From assembly GCA_027019175.1 (NCBI GenBank), contig JALUXB010000076.1, positions 1-33,134 of the forward strand: 33,134 bases of DNA, in the 5' to 3' direction. Position 1 is the stretch's first letter, and every line of letters starts with the position of its first letter. Both the position numbers and the translations under genes were made by a program. The notes beneath the pieces are model-generated. The model ran no database searches, was not told where the DNA came from, and saw nothing but the letters and a program-made list of their open reading frames with translations. Positions 17,626 through 32,967 of the stretch are shown piece by piece. Source of the stretch: Sulfurovum sp. (lineage in GTDB: Bacteria > Campylobacterota > Campylobacteria > Campylobacterales > Sulfurovaceae).

Positions 17626-18890
17626 GCATTATCCAATGCTTTTTTGAGATCCTCAATTAAATCCTGTGTATCCTCTAACCCGACACTTAATCGGATCAAC
17701 CCTCCCGGAACACCTGCATCAATGAGCTCCTGCGCGGAGAGCTGCTGATGCGTCGTACTGGCTGGGTGGGTAATGATCGATTTGCTGTCACCAATATTGA
17801 CGACGACAGAGAATATCTCTGTCGAGTCGGCAATCTTTTGTGCCATCTCTTTGTTTTCCACTTCAAATGAAAGCAGACCGCTTGCCATACCGTCTTTGAA
17901 ATACTTCTCTATCAGTTCATGTTGCGGAGAAGATTTAAGACCCGGATAGTTAACACGCTTGACTTTAGGGTGCGCTTCAAGGAACTGGGCAATGGCCAGT
18001 GCCGAAGCGGAGTGCTGCTTCATCCTAAGCGGCAGGGTTTCAAGCCCCTGAATATGCAGCCAGGAATTGAACGGACTCGGTGCACCACCAAGGTCACGCA
18101 GCAATGCCAGACGCACACGCAGTGTAAAGAGCGGCAGCGGCAGGTCGCTGTAGACAAGACCGTGGTAACTTGCATCGGGCTCGTTGAAATGGTAGTAACG
18201 TGCATTGCCTTTGATCTTCTCTGCCAGGTTTTCACGCTCGACAATGATGCCTCCAAGCGCGAGCCCCTGGCCTGTGGTGTACTTGCTTGTCGAGTGCACT
18301 GTCAGATCAACACCATAAGAGAGCGGCTTGCACAGCACCGGTGTTGCCACAGTATTGTCCACACAGGTAAGCACATCGTGTCTGTCAGCAATGGCGACGA
18401 TAGCTTCGATGTCCGCCACATCGATACTCGGGTTGGTAATGCTCTCGAAGATGATCAGTTTCGTCTTCTCGTCGATAAGTGCTTCTATCTCACCCGGATT
18501 TGTCACGTCAAAGTAGCGTGTCTCGATACCGAAACGTTTGATGGTATGCCCAGTCAGCGTTGTTGTTCCGCCATAGACCTGCTTGGCGACAACCACATTG
18601 TCCCCCGCTTCGGCCACATTGGCGATGGCATAGAAGATCGCCGCCATTCCCGAAGCCGTACCGATGGCCGCCACACCGCCCTCAAGCGCAGCGAAGCGTT
18701 TTTCAAAGACATCGGTAGTGGGGTTCATCAGACGGGTATAGATGTTGCCAAGCTCTTTGAGTGCAAAGAGGTTCGCCGCATGTTCGGTATCTCTGAACTC
18801 ATACGCCGTACTCTGGTAGATAGGTACCGCCATCGTACCCTGTGCATCTTTTTCGTATCCTGCGTGTATCGCTATGGTCTGTTCGTGCAT
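17622..18890 (-). CDS. metY: O-acetylhomoserine aminocarboxypropyltransferase (sulfhydrylase)
   Basis: This 422-residue PLP enzyme of the Cys/Met metabolism family has the expected length for MetY. The PLP lysine is K203 in the motif HSTSKYTTGQG. Other family landmarks are YTRLMNPTTD and the substrate-binding GGLIRLSVGLED at the C-terminus. It converts O-acetylhomoserine and sulfide into homocysteine, following MetX. Its ATG overlaps the TAA of a toxin gene (TAATG), so translation may be coupled to a toxin-antitoxin operon. Confidence 0.96.
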   Translation of the reverse strand: MHEQTIAIHAGYEKDAQGTMAVPIYQSTAYEFRDTEHAANLFALKELGNIYTRLMNPTTDVFEKRFAALEGGVAAIGTASGMAAIFYAIANVAEAGDNVVVAKQVYGGTTTLTGHTIKRFGIETRYFDVTNPGEIEALIDEKTKLIIFESITNPSIDVADIEAIVAIADRHDVLTCVDNTVATPVLCKPLSYGVDLTVHSTSKYTTGQGLALGGIIVERENLAEKIKGNARYYHFNEPDASYHGLVYSDLPLPLFTLRVRLALLRDLGGAPSPFNSWLHIQGLETLPLRMKQHSASALAIAQFLEAHPKVKRVNYPGLKSSPQHELIEKYFKDGMASGLLSFEVENKEMAQKIADSTEIFSVVVNIGDSKSIITHPASTTHQQLSAQELIDAGVPGGLIRLSVGLEDTQDLIEDLKKALDNA

Positions 18891-19198
18891 TATGCTTCCT
18901 TTGTGTTTAAATATCGTGTTATATCCAAGGCTCCATGGAATACACCGAGGACTATTACACTCTTTTTATCTTTTATCAAATAGGCGATCCGATAGTGTCC
19001 GTAAAGCAGTATACGTACTTCCCTGCCATCATCATTTGGATAAACATAACCTATCTGAGGAAAAGTAGCCAGTATCTGTACTTTATTGTATATCTCTTTG
19101 ATGATCTTTTTGGCAATTCGTTCATTATCTTGCGTGATATAGTCATGTATATCTTTAAGCCATAATCTGGCTTCTTCTGTCCATTCAATCGTCACCAC
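18890..19198 (-). CDS. RelE/ParE-family toxin
   Basis: This 102-residue protein matches the RelE/ParE toxin pattern: WTEEARLWLKDIHDYI at the start, FPQIGYVYPNDDGREVRIL, then YRIAYLIKDKKSVIVLGVFHGALD at the end. Such toxins cleave mRNA or inhibit gyrase. Start is GTG 19198 or, with a GTGA overlap with the antitoxin stop, GTG 19195. The stop overlaps the metY start. It is paired with the antitoxin immediately upstream. Confidence 0.88.
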   Translation of the reverse strand: MVTIEWTEEARLWLKDIHDYITQDNERIAKKIIKEIYNKVQILATFPQIGYVYPNDDGREVRILLYGHYRIAYLIKDKKSVIVLGVFHGALDITRYLNTKEA

Positions 19199-19371
19199 TT
19201 GGATATTTCGTTTTCCATCTCTTTGTTTGAAATCACTTTGCCGGCTTCGACATCATCAAGCCCTCGCTGTATCATCATATCAAATGCCAACTCTCTGACG
19301 ATCTCTTCATATGTCGAATCTTCAGGCAATGTATCTATAATTCTTTTGGCTTCCTCTTTAGGCGCAGTCAT
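19192..19371 (-). CDS. Antitoxin of the RelE/ParE-type pair
   Basis: This protein of about 59 residues is Glu/Asp-rich, with a helical segment (KEEAKRIIDTLPEDSTYEEIVRELAFDMMIQRGLDD) like other small antitoxins of RelE/ParE modules, and a C-terminal tail ending SKW. ATG 19371 is preferred because GGAAGGA lies six bases upstream; an upstream ATG at 19386 overlaps that site. The stop overlaps the toxin start. Confidence 0.82.
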   Translation of the reverse strand: MTAPKEEAKRIIDTLPEDSTYEEIVRELAFDMMIQRGLDDVEAGKVISNKEMENEISKW

Positions 19372-19400
19372 AGAACATCCTTCCATTTAGTCGTGGAAAT

Positions 19401-28451: not shown

Positions 28452-29381
28452 CTAAAAAACCTCCCAAACCAACCTGTTACGCTTGTTTTTATAAACGCTT
28501 TCCGGCAATTCTAATCGTAAGTGCGGTTTGTATATGGTGTTGTACTCCTGATAGAGGCTGAGCACTTTGGAGTGCTCGAACTCCAGTGAGGTTTTGGTGC
28601 AGTGTTTTTGGCAGGTTTTGGCGGGGAAGTAGGTCTGCTTGTCGTTGTAGATGCCGGCGATGTCGCAGGCTCTGGAGTGGGAGATGGTGCTGTTTGGGTA
28701 GTAGATGTCGGCATAGAAGAGCGGTTTTTTGTTCAAAAAGGACATATCGTAGGGTTTGTTCTCTATGCTGACTCTCGATACACCCATACTTTTGTAAAAC
28801 TCCCTTACGAAATCTATCTCGAACTCAAGGTGGGTGGTGAGCTTTTTTTGGTTTGCAAGCTGTTTGGAGCTGACCTCAAGCGGCTCTTTTGCGTCTAAAA
28901 AGGCATTTTTTATCGTTTTGGTGAAGTTGACGCCCAGTATCACTTTGAAGTCCTCTTTGACAAGTTGGAGCATACCGAAGTCGTTGACTACCACCTCTTT
29001 GACTTCCAGCCGTTTTAGCTCCTCCAAAATCTCTTTAGCTTCCTTCATCTTATGCTCACCGATAGGGGGAAAGACAAAGACAAAGTTATGATGCGTGTCG
29101 TTGAAGTAGCTGTATGCTTTGGCGATGTCAAGTGGAGAAGGCAGAAGATGCTCACAGTAGCTGTTGCCAAAATAGACCCCTTTTATCACCTTTTTGAGCT
29201 CCCGCTCGTCGTAGAAGTAGTGCTGGTTGTTTTGTATCTCTTTGATGGCGTAGTAGTAGTGCTTGTACTTGGGGTGCATCGCGGGGCTTATGAGCGGTTC
29301 GAAGCGTGAAGCGTGTGCCTGTAGGAGTTCATCGAGGTTTTTGAGTGTATGGATGTCGTTGGCTTTGATGTAGAGTTTCAT
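28452..29381 (-). CDS. Peptidase U32-like protein resembling UbiV
   Basis: This 309-residue protein looks like a U32-family TIM-barrel protein. It has the strand-turn EVVVNDFGMLQLV and four cysteines, C76, C239, C257 and C261. The spacing of the last two (TCQKHC) matches the UbiV pattern, in which four Cys hold an Fe-S cluster. It is the second gene of an overlapping pair (ATGA) with another U32-like protein. UbiU/UbiV hydroxylate a ubiquinone precursor without oxygen in other proteobacteria. Campylobacterota use menaquinone, so the substrate here is unknown; a pathway assignment would be inference. Confidence 0.7.
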   Translation of the reverse strand: MKLYIKANDIHTLKNLDELLQAHASRFEPLISPAMHPKYKHYYYAIKEIQNNQHYFYDERELKKVIKGVYFGNSYCEHLLPSPLDIAKAYSYFNDTHHNFVFVFPPIGEHKMKEAKEILEELKRLEVKEVVVNDFGMLQLVKEDFKVILGVNFTKTIKNAFLDAKEPLEVSSKQLANQKKLTTHLEFEIDFVREFYKSMGVSRVSIENKPYDMSFLNKKPLFYADIYYPNSTISHSRACDIAGIYNDKQTYFPAKTCQKHCTKTSLEFEHSKVLSLYQEYNTIYKPHLRLELPESVYKNKRNRLVWEVF

Positions 29382-30328
29382 AGGTCGTACTGGCTCTCTT
29401 TGTAGTTGTAGGGTTCGCTCTCATCATGTAGCAGAAACTTCACAAACTCCCTTCCTCTTGAGGGGATTTTATAGGAGACGATATTGGGGTGTTTTTGGAA
29501 AATCTCTATGGTTTTGAGGATGGCGGTTTTGTTGAGCTTGTGAAATATCTTGTAGGGGTTGTCCTCTTTGTCAAATGTCTGATAGTTCTCGTTTGTAGAG
29601 ATAGTTTTGAGTTGTGCTGCTTTTTGCTCCTGAGTGAGTTTGGGGTTTTTGAGTGTGTGCTTGAAGTGTACATCGGCTTTTTCGATGCTCTTTTTTGAGT
29701 TGATGGCATAACCGCAGAGTGAACCAAACTCCAGCGAATCGTACCCATGTTCACTGAAACAAAACGCTTCACTGAAGCGGCAGTTATCTCCAAACAAAAA
29801 CGCCTCGAACTGCACCTCTTTGTAGTGGGAGACGATACTTTCCAACTCCTCTATCGTGATATCTCTTGGCAAAATGATTTTCACAGGCGAGAACTGCAAA
29901 AAGAACGCCACCGCCGCTTTGGAGTAGAAGCCAAAGAGGTTGGAGAGCACTATCTTGTCATACCCAAGTGAGTGCAGATAGAGCAGTGTAGGCATATTGG
30001 CGACGATCATCCCATCAACCTTGTCGGCAAAGAGTGTGAAGTTGCGTTTTATCTCCTCCAAGATAATCCCATTGGTAAAAAAGGCGTTGAGTGCCAGATA
30101 GAGCGTGCCGCCATGCTGTTGGATTTTGGTGATGTCTTGTGTGATTTTTTCGATGGAGGAGTACTGCTCTTTGAGTCGGTAGCGTCTGTTTGGGGAGATT
30201 TGGGTGGCGTAGCTCTCTATGTAGCGCTTGTCGATATAGCCGAAGTAAAACTGCCGAAACCCAAGTCGCAGCAGTTCGTCGATATCGTTTTGTTGGGAGA
30301 TGCCTATGATGCATTTGGAAAAGTTCAT
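29378..30328 (-). CDS. Peptidase U32-like protein resembling UbiU
   Basis: This 316-residue protein has U32-like features: a barrel start with GFRQFYFGYID, YLALNAFF, VDGMIVANMPTLLYL, KIVLSNLFGFYS, and a Cys-rich region with C183, C190 and C205 (DNCRFSEAFCFSEHG, then GSLCGYAINSKKS). The C183/C190 spacing is like that of UbiU. It overlaps the UbiV-like gene, so the two probably form a heterodimer. Function unknown beyond the family. Its TGA stop is embedded in an ATGA overlap, evidence that TGA is a stop in this genome. Confidence 0.72.
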   Translation of the reverse strand: MNFSKCIIGISQQNDIDELLRLGFRQFYFGYIDKRYIESYATQISPNRRYRLKEQYSSIEKITQDITKIQQHGGTLYLALNAFFTNGIILEEIKRNFTLFADKVDGMIVANMPTLLYLHSLGYDKIVLSNLFGFYSKAAVAFFLQFSPVKIILPRDITIEELESIVSHYKEVQFEAFLFGDNCRFSEAFCFSEHGYDSLEFGSLCGYAINSKKSIEKADVHFKHTLKNPKLTQEQKAAQLKTISTNENYQTFDKEDNPYKIFHKLNKTAILKTIEIFQKHPNIVSYKIPSRGREFVKFLLHDESEPYNYKESQYDL

Positions 30329-30344
30329 GGGTTACTCTGAATTT

Positions 30345-30560
30345 TTACCGAGTCTTACTATTAAATGATGCTCTTATTTTATCAAGTGAAAGTTTTTTTA
30401 TTTTACCGCGTTCATAGCGTTCTCTTCTGCTTTCAAGAACCTTCTTGTGCCATGCCGGTGATGTTAATGGGGTTTCGTTTTGTTTCAAGCTGTTCCATAA
30501 TTGCTCCATAAGATAAACCTTTTGAGCCGGGGACATACTACTAATATTACTTATTGACAT
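30345..30560 (-). CDS. Addiction-module antitoxin-like protein, orphan
   Basis: This 71-residue protein resembles the small putative addiction-module component family: SPAQKVYLMEQLWNSL, then an AWHKKVLESRRERYERGK segment and a basic tail. Start ATG 30560 has AAAGGAG six bases upstream; a GTG at 30584 would add eight residues. Members usually precede a RelE-type toxin, but here the next gene is the U32-like gene 16 bases away, so no toxin partner is visible. It lies 76 bases from the unusual tRNA at 30637. Confidence 0.75.
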   Translation of the reverse strand: MSISNISSMSPAQKVYLMEQLWNSLKQNETPLTSPAWHKKVLESRRERYERGKIKKLSLDKIRASFNSKTR

Positions 30561-30636: not shown

Positions 30637-30729
30637 TGGCGAGAGCAATGGGAATCGAACCCATACCGAGGATTGGAAGTCCTCCATCCAGTCTTAGAGG
30701 CTGGTGTGCTACCATTACACTATGCTCTC
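30637..30729 (-). tRNA. Unusual 93-nt tRNA with two anticodon-like arms, CUA and UCC
   Basis: Read on the minus strand, the gene has an acceptor GAGAGCA/TGCTCTC, discriminator G, encoded CCA, a D arm GTGT/GCAC with loop AATGGTA, and a T arm ATGGG/CCCAT. Between D and T arms are two hairpins. The first (CCAG/CTGG, next pair C-A mismatched) has the 7-base loop CTCTAAG, giving anticodon CUA with U33. The second (GAGGA/TCCTC) has loop CTTCCAA, the glycine UCC loop. Read as a long-variable-arm tRNA it would decode UAG; read with the second arm as the anticodon arm it is tRNA-Gly-like with a 20-base extra hairpin. G73 and a long variable region would suit serine; the charged amino acid is unknown. 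Confidence 0.75.
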
Positions 30730-30895: not shown

Positions 30896-30982
30896 TTATC
30901 TTTCCCAAATATCTCACCACTTTATAGTCACTCTTTGTCAAGGATATTTTTCACTTTCAACAACTACATCAGGACTATTCTA
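30896..30982 (-). other. In-frame continuation after the TAG of the recoded gene
   Basis: After the in-frame TAG (30980-30982, codon 279) the same frame continues 27 codons to TAA at 30896-30898. It includes two more TGA codons (293 and 301) that again read well as Gly (SEKYPGQRVTIKWGD). The segment looks like a normal beta-strand-rich protein end just before the terminator. Either TAG is also read through, for which a CUA tRNA is encoded nearby, or the TAG truncates a formerly longer protein. Confidence 0.6.
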
Positions 30983-31816
30983 ATATCAGCTTACTGATTT
31001 GCTTTCATCTCATTCACTTCAAGAAAATGTAATAGTTACTACTCATTGAACTTCATCATCATCTACCCAAGCTTTATAAGTATTATTACCTAAATCATCT
31101 ATTGCTCCAATATGACTACCAGCTGTTACATCTATATGATCAAGAACTGGTGCTTGCTCATTTACTTTGATAGTAATATGATTTGACTCTGTTACTGCTC
31201 CATCATCATCTGTTGCTTTTGCATAATAAGTATATGTTCAAGCTGTATTTTCTGTAATACTTATACTTACTCATGTTCAAACTTTATTACCATTTCAATC
31301 AAACCACTCTATTTTTGTAACTGTACCATCTGGATCTGATGCATTTGCTGTTAAAGTAACAGTTTCTCATTCTGTTACTGTTGTTTTATCTGCTGAAACT
31401 GATATAGTTGGAGCTTGGTTTGGGGTTACATTGGCTGTGCGTATAGAAATTGCTTCTATCTTTGTCTCCTCTTCTTGAAGTTCAGGATTCTCTCCTTTGA
31501 CTACAACCTGTACATTATACGTTCTGCCAGCAGATAGATTCTCTATCGTTTTGTTGGCATCAATAAAGGTACTATCAGTTGGAACTGCTATACTAAGTAT
31601 TTGTCAATCGACAATAAGTTCTATTTCTTTCAGTCAATCCTGATCCTCAGCTTTAACATTGACGATTGCTTGGTTTTCAAAAACTTGCCCTACTTGATTG
31701 GCAGATACAGTCAATACATGATTGATTGTTTCAATGGGTGTCCTCTGTCATTTACACCCCACCATCAGATAAGATGCTATAATCGCTGAAAGCGCAATGG
31801 AGGTTCACTTTTTCAT
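30980..31816 (-). CDS. TGA-to-glycine recoded lipoprotein with PKD/Ig-like domains
   Basis: From ATG 31816 this frame runs 278 codons to TAG, with 13 in-frame TGA at codons 4, 23, 61, 71, 150, 174, 180, 182, 193, 258, 266, 269 and 277. Read as Gly the protein is coherent: a lipoprotein signal MKKGTSIALSAI with lipobox LMVGC (Cys21), an Ig-like region with DQDGLKEIELIVDG (about 37-125), a PKD-like domain (about 130-215: TEGETVTLTANASDPDG, EWFDGNGNKVGTG, TAGTYTYYAKATDDDGA), then a beta-rich end. Ten further glycines use GGN codons. TGG encodes Trp at its sites, so TGA=Trp does not fit. In the standard code it would give a 3-residue peptide. UGA=Gly is known from Absconditabacteria and Gracilibacteria. 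Possible role: cell-surface adhesion, by domain type only. Confidence 0.88.
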
Positions 31817-31833
31817 TTTTTCCCTTTTTCTAC

Positions 31834-31877
31834 GCCACACCTCCAAAAGAGAGCTCTCTCTTCTTTGAATGTGTGGC
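31834..31877 (-). promoter_or_regulatory. Long hairpin just upstream of the recoded gene start
   Basis: GCCACAC at 31834-31840 pairs with GTGTGGC at 31871-31877, and the interior contains a GAGAGCTCTC self-complementary core. On the minus-strand mRNA it ends 17 bases before the ATG and contains GGAGG in its 3' arm. A purine run AGGG lies directly before the ATG. It could affect translation or be a recombination site; function not shown. Confidence 0.5.
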
Positions 31878-32202
31878 AGAACAACCACAAAACCTTTTCT
31901 TCAGAGCATAACCGAACACTCAAGGGCATGGAAGACAAAGTGTCGTGTACCGAAGCTACAACGCTCTGTATGCTTACTTACCGGGTATCCCTCCCGGCCC
32001 TCGTCACACACAGCGCATAGCCACAACACCCTTTTCTTTTAAACCACCCCTTTTTGGTTCAAGCGACACCCTTTTGCCTAGCGGTAAACCCAAGCTACTC
32101 GGGCTCACTTGTTATGGTGAGTACTTGTTTGGTGTCTGTCAAATATCTAATATGCATATTATAAGGGATGTTTTCTTAAAAAAGTATGAAAGCAATCTAT
32201 GC
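31878..32202. other. Non-coding, hairpin-rich region between recoded gene and right tRNA
   Basis: No convincing gene is visible on either strand with the standard code or with TGA as Gly. Hairpins include CCGGG/CCCGG at 31981-31997 and CTCAC/GTGAG at 32104-32121. On the minus strand a TATAAT (32163-32158) and a TTGACA (32142-32137) occur but are not spaced as a promoter. I could not match the region to RNase P RNA, tmRNA, 6S or SRP RNA. An 86-codon plus-strand frame at 31945-32205 has no ribosome binding site or recognisable family. Confidence 0.5.
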
Positions 32203-32220: not shown

Positions 32221-32313
32221 GCGGGCGTGGCATAATGGCTGTGCGCTGGGCTTCAGACCCAGTATTGGACTTCCAATCCAGTTACGCGGGTTCGATTCCC
32301 GTCGCCCGCTCCA
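32221..32313 (+). tRNA. Unusual 93-nt glycine-type tRNA with two anticodon-like arms, UCA and UCC
   Basis: Acceptor GCGGGCG/CGCCCGC with U73 and encoded CCA matches bacterial glycine tRNA identity (G1-C72, C2-G71, G3-C70, U73). D arm GCAT/GTGC with loop AATGGCT, T arm GCGGG/CCCGT. Between D and T arms are two 5-bp hairpins: CTGGG/CCCAG with loop CTTCAGA (anticodon UCA, U33 present) and TTGGA/TCCAG with loop CTTCCAA (anticodon UCC). Leaving out the first hairpin with its TA gives a canonical 74-nt tRNA-Gly(UCC). With the first as anticodon arm it would read UGA, as the neighbouring recoded gene needs. A selenocysteine tRNA is unlikely: 7/5 acceptor/T branch, U73 and a normal D loop. Confidence 0.8.
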
Positions 32314-32328
32314 ATACAAGAGAAATTT

Positions 32329-32967
32329 ATGGCAAAACACTTCTACCATATCCCGCTACAAAATGCCCTACAGTTTGTCAAACAGCACAAAACCTGGCTC
32401 AACAGAGTAGCACAACACCCCAAAGAGCGCACCTACTACGCTCTGCTTGGCAAAAGCTACTACAACCTACAGATAGAAGAATTTATCCACTTTTTCAAGA
32501 TAGACAAAAACATCGATGCAACACTCAAAAGTGTAGAGTATTTCCATAGTATTGGTTTCATTGGCACGATGCACAAAGTGCTCAACTTTTCACAATTTCA
32601 GGTAGATAAAGACAAAGAGATGAAAAAGAGCTTTTTCTACGCTTTTTGCTACCGCTATGCCAAAGAGGAGGCAGAGGGCTTTGAGCTCTTTATACAAAAG
32701 ACACTGCTATACTACCACACAAGCTTCAACACCGAGTCCAACATATCAATAAACCATCAAGATATCTGCCATACTTTGGCAAAGAGCAGACATATCACCA
32801 TCAAAGAGTCCTTTGGAGAGGAGGGAAAAGGGGTCTTTTTCAAACTCTTTTTAGATGGTGCCATCACCATAGAGGAGAAAGGTAAACGCATTAAGACACT
32901 TCGTAAAAAGGCATACAAACGGCTGCTCTATGTTATACTGGAGCGTGGGGAGTCACATAGGGTGTGA
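32329..32967 (+). CDS. Hypothetical protein, 212 residues, 15 bases after the unusual tRNA
   Basis: The protein starts MAKHFYHIPLQNALQFVK and is rich in Lys, Phe, Tyr and His with no membrane segment or signal peptide. It looks mostly helical, with a basic C-terminal region (KRIKTLRKKAYKRLL). AGAG lies eight bases before the ATG. Glycines use GGN codons and the gene ends with TGA, so it follows the standard code, unlike the recoded gene. It may be co-transcribed with the tRNA. I do not recognise the family. Confidence 0.75.
   Translation: MAKHFYHIPLQNALQFVKQHKTWLNRVAQHPKERTYYALLGKSYYNLQIEEFIHFFKIDKNIDATLKSVEYFHSIGFIGTMHKVLNFSQFQVDKDKEMKKSFFYAFCYRYAKEEAEGFELFIQKTLLYYHTSFNTESNISINHQDICHTLAKSRHITIKESFGEEGKGVFFKLFLDGAITIEEKGKRIKTLRKKAYKRLLYVILERGESHRV

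Follow-up and report, generated by a model that had tools for sequence, protein, structure and literature searches.

A tRNA-Gly-like gene with two anticodon arms, set beside a stop-rich gene, suggests local recoding of UGA in Sulfurovum

Introduction

In many tRNAs the anticodon serves both the ribosome and the synthetase, and since a changed anticodon impairs charging, codon reassignment is limited. Bacterial tRNA-Sec has an 8-bp acceptor and G73. The Absconditabacteria and Gracilibacteria carry a UCA tRNA of the tRNA-Gly type with the usual arms, in a code that applies genome-wide. The UGA=Gly code of these two groups (NCBI table 25) has been reported (PMC4032931, PMC13092985), and the glycine identity elements in bacteria are C35, C36, G1-C72, C2-G71 and U73 (PMC9976931). 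According to the section of PMC7609411 on tRNA-Sec-like structures, tRNA-Sec has a longer acceptor and variable arm, and the allo-tRNAs and SelC* tRNA-Cys are 8/4 or 9/3 molecules of the serine or cysteine type, none of which is described there with a second anticodon-like arm for its own amino acid. The nematode nev-tRNA-Gly has a variable arm and in vitro is mischarged with leucine (PMC4300185).

Here we analyse a 33,134-nt stretch of Sulfurovum sp. DNA (the window) that holds a tRNA gene with a UCA and a UCC anticodon arm. The locus resembles the Absconditabacteria and Gracilibacteria in its probable reading of UGA as glycine, but differs from them in that UGA is a stop elsewhere, its tRNA carries an additional anticodon arm, a CUA partner exists, and the whole belongs to a dedicated island of Campylobacterota. 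As in the tRNA-Sec and tRNA-Pyl cassettes, a dedicated UCA or CUA tRNA accompanies stop-containing genes, and the long variable region recalls tRNA-Sec. Unlike in those cassettes, there is no 8-bp acceptor, position 73 is U, three of four hosts have no SelB over the cut-off, and each gene contains many stops, which lie at glycine positions and would not stand for a 21st amino acid. The tRNA shares with the allo-tRNAs and SelC* a natural non-canonical form and, probably, a charging identity apart from the anticodon, and with nev-tRNA-Gly the combination of a glycine-type anticodon and an extra arm, although here it is the extra arm that holds the glycine anticodon loop. The preliminary description of this DNA knew of no natural tRNA with this plan; searches of the open-licence full-text literature yielded no tRNA in which two such anticodon arms are combined, and the section on tRNA-Sec-like structures in PMC7609411 contains none. 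If our reading is true, a separate anticodon for the synthetase would show how evolution can get round the limit set by charging, would offer a design plan for engineered suppressors that retain their own synthetase, and would open to testing the idea that single genes are recoded while the genome-wide code stays as it is.

Two tRNA genes with two anticodon arms

The tRNA gene at 32221-32313 (+) was examined by sequence, ARAGORN, Rfam, RNAfold and a covariance model. Its layout is GCGGGCG TGGCATAATGGCTGTGCG CTGGG(CTTCAGA)CCCAG TA TTGGA(CTTCCAA)TCCAG TTAC GCGGG(TTCGATT)CCCGT CGCCCGC TCCA, that is, canonical acceptor, D, anticodon and T arms with a CCA end, plus an extra arm. Arm 1 (32246-32262, +) presents UCA at 32253-32255, complementary to UGA, and arm 2 (32265-32281, +), the putative handle for glycyl-tRNA synthetase, presents UCC at 32272-32274. 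The two-hairpin architecture proposed earlier is real: the acceptor (7/7), arm 1 (5/5), arm 2 (5/5) and the T arm (5/5) pair without a mismatch, and the minimum-energy structure of the 93 nt computed by RNAfold is a five-arm cloverleaf (-39.4 kcal/mol). Both ARAGORN and Rfam (56 bits) call a tRNA, with ARAGORN labelling it 'SeC' because of the UCA anticodon, and the covariance-model scan that the preliminary description had recommended gave 102.6 bits, a score to which the sequence itself contributed as one of those building the model. When arm 1 and the linker are removed, ARAGORN classes the remaining 74-mer as tRNA-Gly(tcc), as had been predicted; removal of arm 2 leaves a UCA tRNA. The 3' half, from arm 2 through the linker and T arm to the acceptor, matches ordinary plasmid-borne tRNA-Gly(UCC) genes at approximately 86-93%; plasmid BLAST matches to the tRNA proved to be ordinary tRNA-Gly(UCC) or fragments.

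The acceptor is of the bacterial glycine type (G1-C72, C2-G71, U73). In the decoding anticodon, however, the pair C35 and C36 is incomplete, since UCA provides C35 only, and the two cytosines occur together only in the arm-2 loop. As in a nonsense suppressor, the arm-1 anticodon is complementary to a stop codon, and the cognate genes contain stops.

A pattern combining a T loop, a UCC-type loop and a stop anticodon matched the window twice, against no match in 100 shuffles. The second match, absent from the preliminary description, is another two-arm tRNA at 30637-30729 (-; 96.6 bits; ARAGORN 'Pyl'), with CUA at 30695-30697 in arm 1, CCAGC(CTCTAAG)ACTGG, and UCC at 30675-30677 in arm 2, GAGGA(CTTCCAA)TCCTC, whose loop is that of tRNA-Gly(UCC). 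Its pair 31-39 is mismatched, its decoding anticodon has neither C35 nor C36, and its acceptor departs from the glycine type (A2-U71, G73). The two CUA tRNAs that we found come from two families, and both have a perfect CTTCCAA arm-2 loop. Because they carry G73 rather than U73, glycine at UAG is weakly supported; the six in-frame TAGs in recoded genes lie in ambiguous contexts. A two-arm tRNA with the anticodon CCG, which reads the arginine codon CGG, and with the arm-2 loop TGACCAA was seen in relative G481 (L253:5507-5601 and L255:18189-18283). The intact recoded genes near it contain TGA and no TAG, and it may be a former CUA tRNA with a changed codon.

Homologues and the evolution of arm 2

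The search for homologues comprised 1,560 genome look-ups, with many genomes visited more than once (G000 denotes the window's genome, other G numbers its relatives and L numbers their loci). Two-arm homologues were present in six further genomes, giving six genera and three families overall. Two-arm UCA tRNAs occur in a second Sulfurovum (G039; contig CACVAS010000030.1, uncultured), in a member of the same family (G285), in three genomes of another family (G462, G481 and G500) and in one of a third (G591). The plan of a tRNA-Gly(UCC) body with an added stop-anticodon arm is thus shared by other genera, and arm 2 covaries. In an alignment of 11 two-arm tRNAs from 7 genomes (8 UCA, 2 CUA and 1 CCG), 96.5% of the cells expected to pair do so and 18/26 pairs show changes on both sides, values that lean in favour of the model since the alignment was fitted to it. 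In this model-fitted alignment, covariation reached 0.545, while shuffles gave 0.251 and slid controls no more than 0.136, and 51 cells had changes on both sides, compared to 15 in shuffles. In arm 2 (helix 4), all cells are paired (100%) and each of the five pairs shows compensatory changes.

Of the two arms, arm 1 is conserved more strongly. Its anticodon is always of the stop type or CCG, and UCA is kept in all eight UCA-type members. In the arm-2 loop, the CC is kept in 11/11 while U33 and N34 are not: most loops are CTTCCAA or CTTCCAC, alongside CTCCAA (L156), AACCAA (L253), AAACCAA (L258) and TGACCAA (L254 and the CCG tRNA of L253), with both U33 and N34 altered in G500 (AAACCAA) and G481 (AACCAA, TGACCAA). 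Loops of this kind would be expected to decode poorly. The retention of CC despite the loss of U33 and N34 indicates that arm 2 is probably read by glycyl-tRNA synthetase, not by the ribosome, and from these patterns we infer that arm 1 is read by the ribosome and arm 2 by the synthetase. Of the two decoding functions suggested in the preliminary description, the reading of UGA by UCA is the one that we retain as probable; UCC is probably not a second decoder. Without arm 1, six of the eight tRNAs tested are called Gly by ARAGORN.

At two distant loci (G526 and G061), the UCA tRNA at the corresponding position, before the homologue of the gene at 32329-32967, has a short, 4-bp variable arm, and the loop in G061 lacks CC. 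Among the matches listed by pattern scans of viral contigs, none was a two-arm tRNA whose loop had a glycine-type CC, and look-alike matches in the pattern scans were ordinary tRNAs or chance.

Stop-rich genes beside the two-arm tRNAs

Between the two tRNAs of the window lies a gene (30896-31816, -) of 306 aa with a lipoprotein-like start, an Ig-like domain (Pfam Big_7, 1.6e-7) that spans stops, 15 TGA and one TAG in frame, a TGA at codon 4, and a TAA end. Related genes remain open for up to 1090 codons save for TGA and TAG and contain Pfam domains; the surface gene of G462 (L156) has 1090 codons with 21 TGA and 2 TAG, and the recoded gene of G500 has 613 codons with 33 TGA and 3 TAG. In 19 standard-code alignments from related genomes, glycine accounts for 35/103 residues aligned with stop positions, compared to a background of 5.4%. 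At the stop positions of the window gene, glycine is enriched 5.7-fold over background among standard-code Ig homologues, with 14/17 at X193 and 9/19 at X150, and homologues have glycine at X60 of the G462 gene in 4/5 cases and at X48 of the G500 gene in 3/4. This bears out the earlier proposal that the adjacent gene needs UGA to be read as glycine. Near-identical paralogues retain their TGAs, and one GGA-TGA exchange was seen between paralogues in G481. Most of the UGA positions in G462 fall within repeats for which there is no reliable homologue, and no glycine enrichment was found there. A small coiled-coil protein in G591 (L256:8545-9117, -) has eight in-frame TGAs, two of them within heptad-like repeats, an odd setting for glycine; these two count against the glycine reading.

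UGA is an ordinary stop elsewhere in the host genomes, and the proposed recoding is local, not global. TGA ends 27.6% of 134 long open reading frames in G000, compared to 23.6% in an island-free congener, and 16.9% in G462, compared to 13.3% in its island-free congener; ordinary genes of G000 stop at UGA, in contrast to the genome-wide code of table 25, and two genes of the island itself end in TGA, as described below. The simplest idea is that the tRNA is expressed weakly or only under certain conditions, which would protect normal UGA stops. In 7/8 recoded genes a TGA stands at codons 3-6 (P=4e-7 with the TGA density of each gene taken into account), so that translation should halt at once without a suppressor. 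This suggests a tRNA-dependent gate for the expression of these genes.

A model and its alternatives

We consider it probable that the gene encodes a natural nonsense-suppressor tRNA-Gly whose two anticodon arms split the jobs and which inserts glycine at UGA in the neighbouring gene. UGA decoding, glycine charging, the division of labour between the arms and gating are what we infer. Arm 1, in the normal place of the anticodon arm, would read UGA on the ribosome, while arm 2 would replace a class-II variable arm and retain the original anticodon loop of tRNA-Gly, in which glycyl-tRNA synthetase could still find C35-C36, besides G1-C72, C2-G71 and U73. The tRNA would put glycine at the many UGAs of the adjacent lipoprotein/Ig-domain gene while UGA stayed a stop in ordinary genes, and the CUA sister would do likewise at UAG. 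Because nearly every recoded gene has a UGA at codons 3-6, the recoded protein would depend on the tRNA, which would act as its gate. With somewhat less assurance, we lean towards a wider reading in which the two-arm tRNA, with one arm for the ribosome and one for the synthetase, would drive an expression gate that is mobile and locally recoded, such that UGA (and UAG) would mean glycine only for the surface protein of one island, under a structured leader RNA.

The most serious alternative, which we nevertheless regard as unlikely, is that the tRNA is a suppressor whose arm 2 is a mere class-II variable arm with no part in charging, so that either the acceptor by itself confers glycine identity or a different amino acid is inserted. 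The short variable arms in G526 and G061 and the G73 of the CUA tRNAs fit this account, as does the tRNA-Gly(UCA) of the Gracilibacteria and Absconditabacteria, which is not known to need an extra arm. It does not readily explain why the anticodon-like CC is kept in every aligned member despite compensatory turnover of the stem and the loss of U33 and N34, nor why both CUA tRNAs, in two families, keep CTTCCAA even though CUA destroys C35 and C36. Less probable still is processing of the 93-nt transcript, with arm 1 excised like an intron to yield an ordinary 74-nt tRNA-Gly(UCC). The Gly calls on deletion of arm 1, in the window and in most relatives, and the resemblance of the 3' half to plasmid-borne tRNA-Gly(UCC) would be expected from it. 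Against it, arm 1 is better conserved than arm 2 and its anticodon is in every case of the stop type or CCG, tRNA-Gly(UCC) genes are present in the host in any case, the adjacent genes need a UGA reader, and a spliced form of the G500 or G481 tRNAs, with no U33 in AAACCAA, AACCAA or TGACCAA, should read GGA poorly.

It is highly improbable that the stop-rich genes and odd tRNAs are decayed pseudogenes without function. The islands are indeed patchy, and broken or partial copies occur in G285, G337, G585, G061 and G082, but the reading frames are long and open except at TGA and TAG, they encode Pfam domains, glycine stands at the stop positions in homologues, the tRNA changes are compensatory, and near-identical paralogues preserve their TGAs. 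One refuting possibility named in the preliminary description, an ordinary selenocysteine tRNA, has next to no likelihood: the 'SeC' label of ARAGORN speaks for it, but the acceptor is of 7 bp with U73, SelB over the cut-off was found only in G462 and not in G000, G039 or G285, and the genes have many UGAs each, in glycine contexts.

The island and its neighbours

The proposed two-arm suppressor lies within a recurring island consisting of a structured leader, a stop-rich gene, the UCA tRNA and a gene that we term MAKHxYH; some copies also contain another two-arm tRNA and a pair of U32-like genes. The leader RNA (31817-32150, -; core GACGAGGGCCGGGAGGGATACCCGGTAAGTAAG at 31973-32005) lies upstream of the recoded gene, is approximately 330 nt long and is conserved in the window, G285, G039 and G462; its consensus fold shows compensatory change in 13/29 predicted pairs (four sequences). 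Rfam contained no family for it, and it is a possible regulator or recoding element. The MAKHxYH gene (32329-32967, +) directly follows the UCA tRNA and encodes 212 aa with a C-terminal GKSIKTLRKKAYK-like motif and a TGA end; members of the family have 200-230 aa and end in GKSIKTLRKKAYK or similar. All genomes with a two-arm UCA tRNA have a MAKHxYH homologue directly downstream of it, and a UCA tRNA directly precedes the gene at 10 loci in 9 genomes, which is every locus with an intact 5' end of the gene. The protein had no match in Pfam or NCBIfam and no relative in protein searches of viral contigs, plasmids and phages, and a single-sequence fold prediction was unusable (mean pLDDT 34).

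Downstream of the CUA tRNA lies U32-a (29378-30328, -), a U32-family gene (UbiU/TrhP-like) whose TGA end overlaps the start of U32-b (28452-29381, -), which encodes a second U32-like protein with a weak Pfam match below the cut-off. A test of 15 other genomes (G481 excluded) showed U32-b in G000 and G462 alone; in three genomes the U32 pair (28452-30328, -, in the window) stands beside the second two-arm tRNA. With UbiU and the tRNA hydroxylase TrhP among the U32 relatives, the two proteins are possibly a tRNA- or rRNA-modifying pair.

The order in G462 (L156) is that of the window: U32-b, U32-a, the CUA two-arm tRNA, the surface gene, the leader, the UCA two-arm tRNA and MAKHxYH. In G481 (L253), the UCA tRNA and MAKHxYH are accompanied by two TGA-rich genes, the second two-arm tRNA (CCG) and both U32 genes. 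We rejected assembly contamination, since islands are contiguous in several genomes, one of them on a single 3.27-Mb contig. Gene fragments only were present in G337, G082 and G585. In G285 (L189:1-2095), the island is decaying, with MAKHxYH broken by a TAA and the recoded gene shortened beside a REP-type transposase-like open reading frame, and the two-arm tRNA is still almost fully paired. At L255 of G481, parts of the island are interleaved with repeated transposase-like genes, which suggests mobility. By eye, we also noted a small addiction-module-like open reading frame directly downstream of the CUA tRNA and before U32-a (30360-30560, -), and a ParE-like open reading frame with a partner at 18890-19390 (-).
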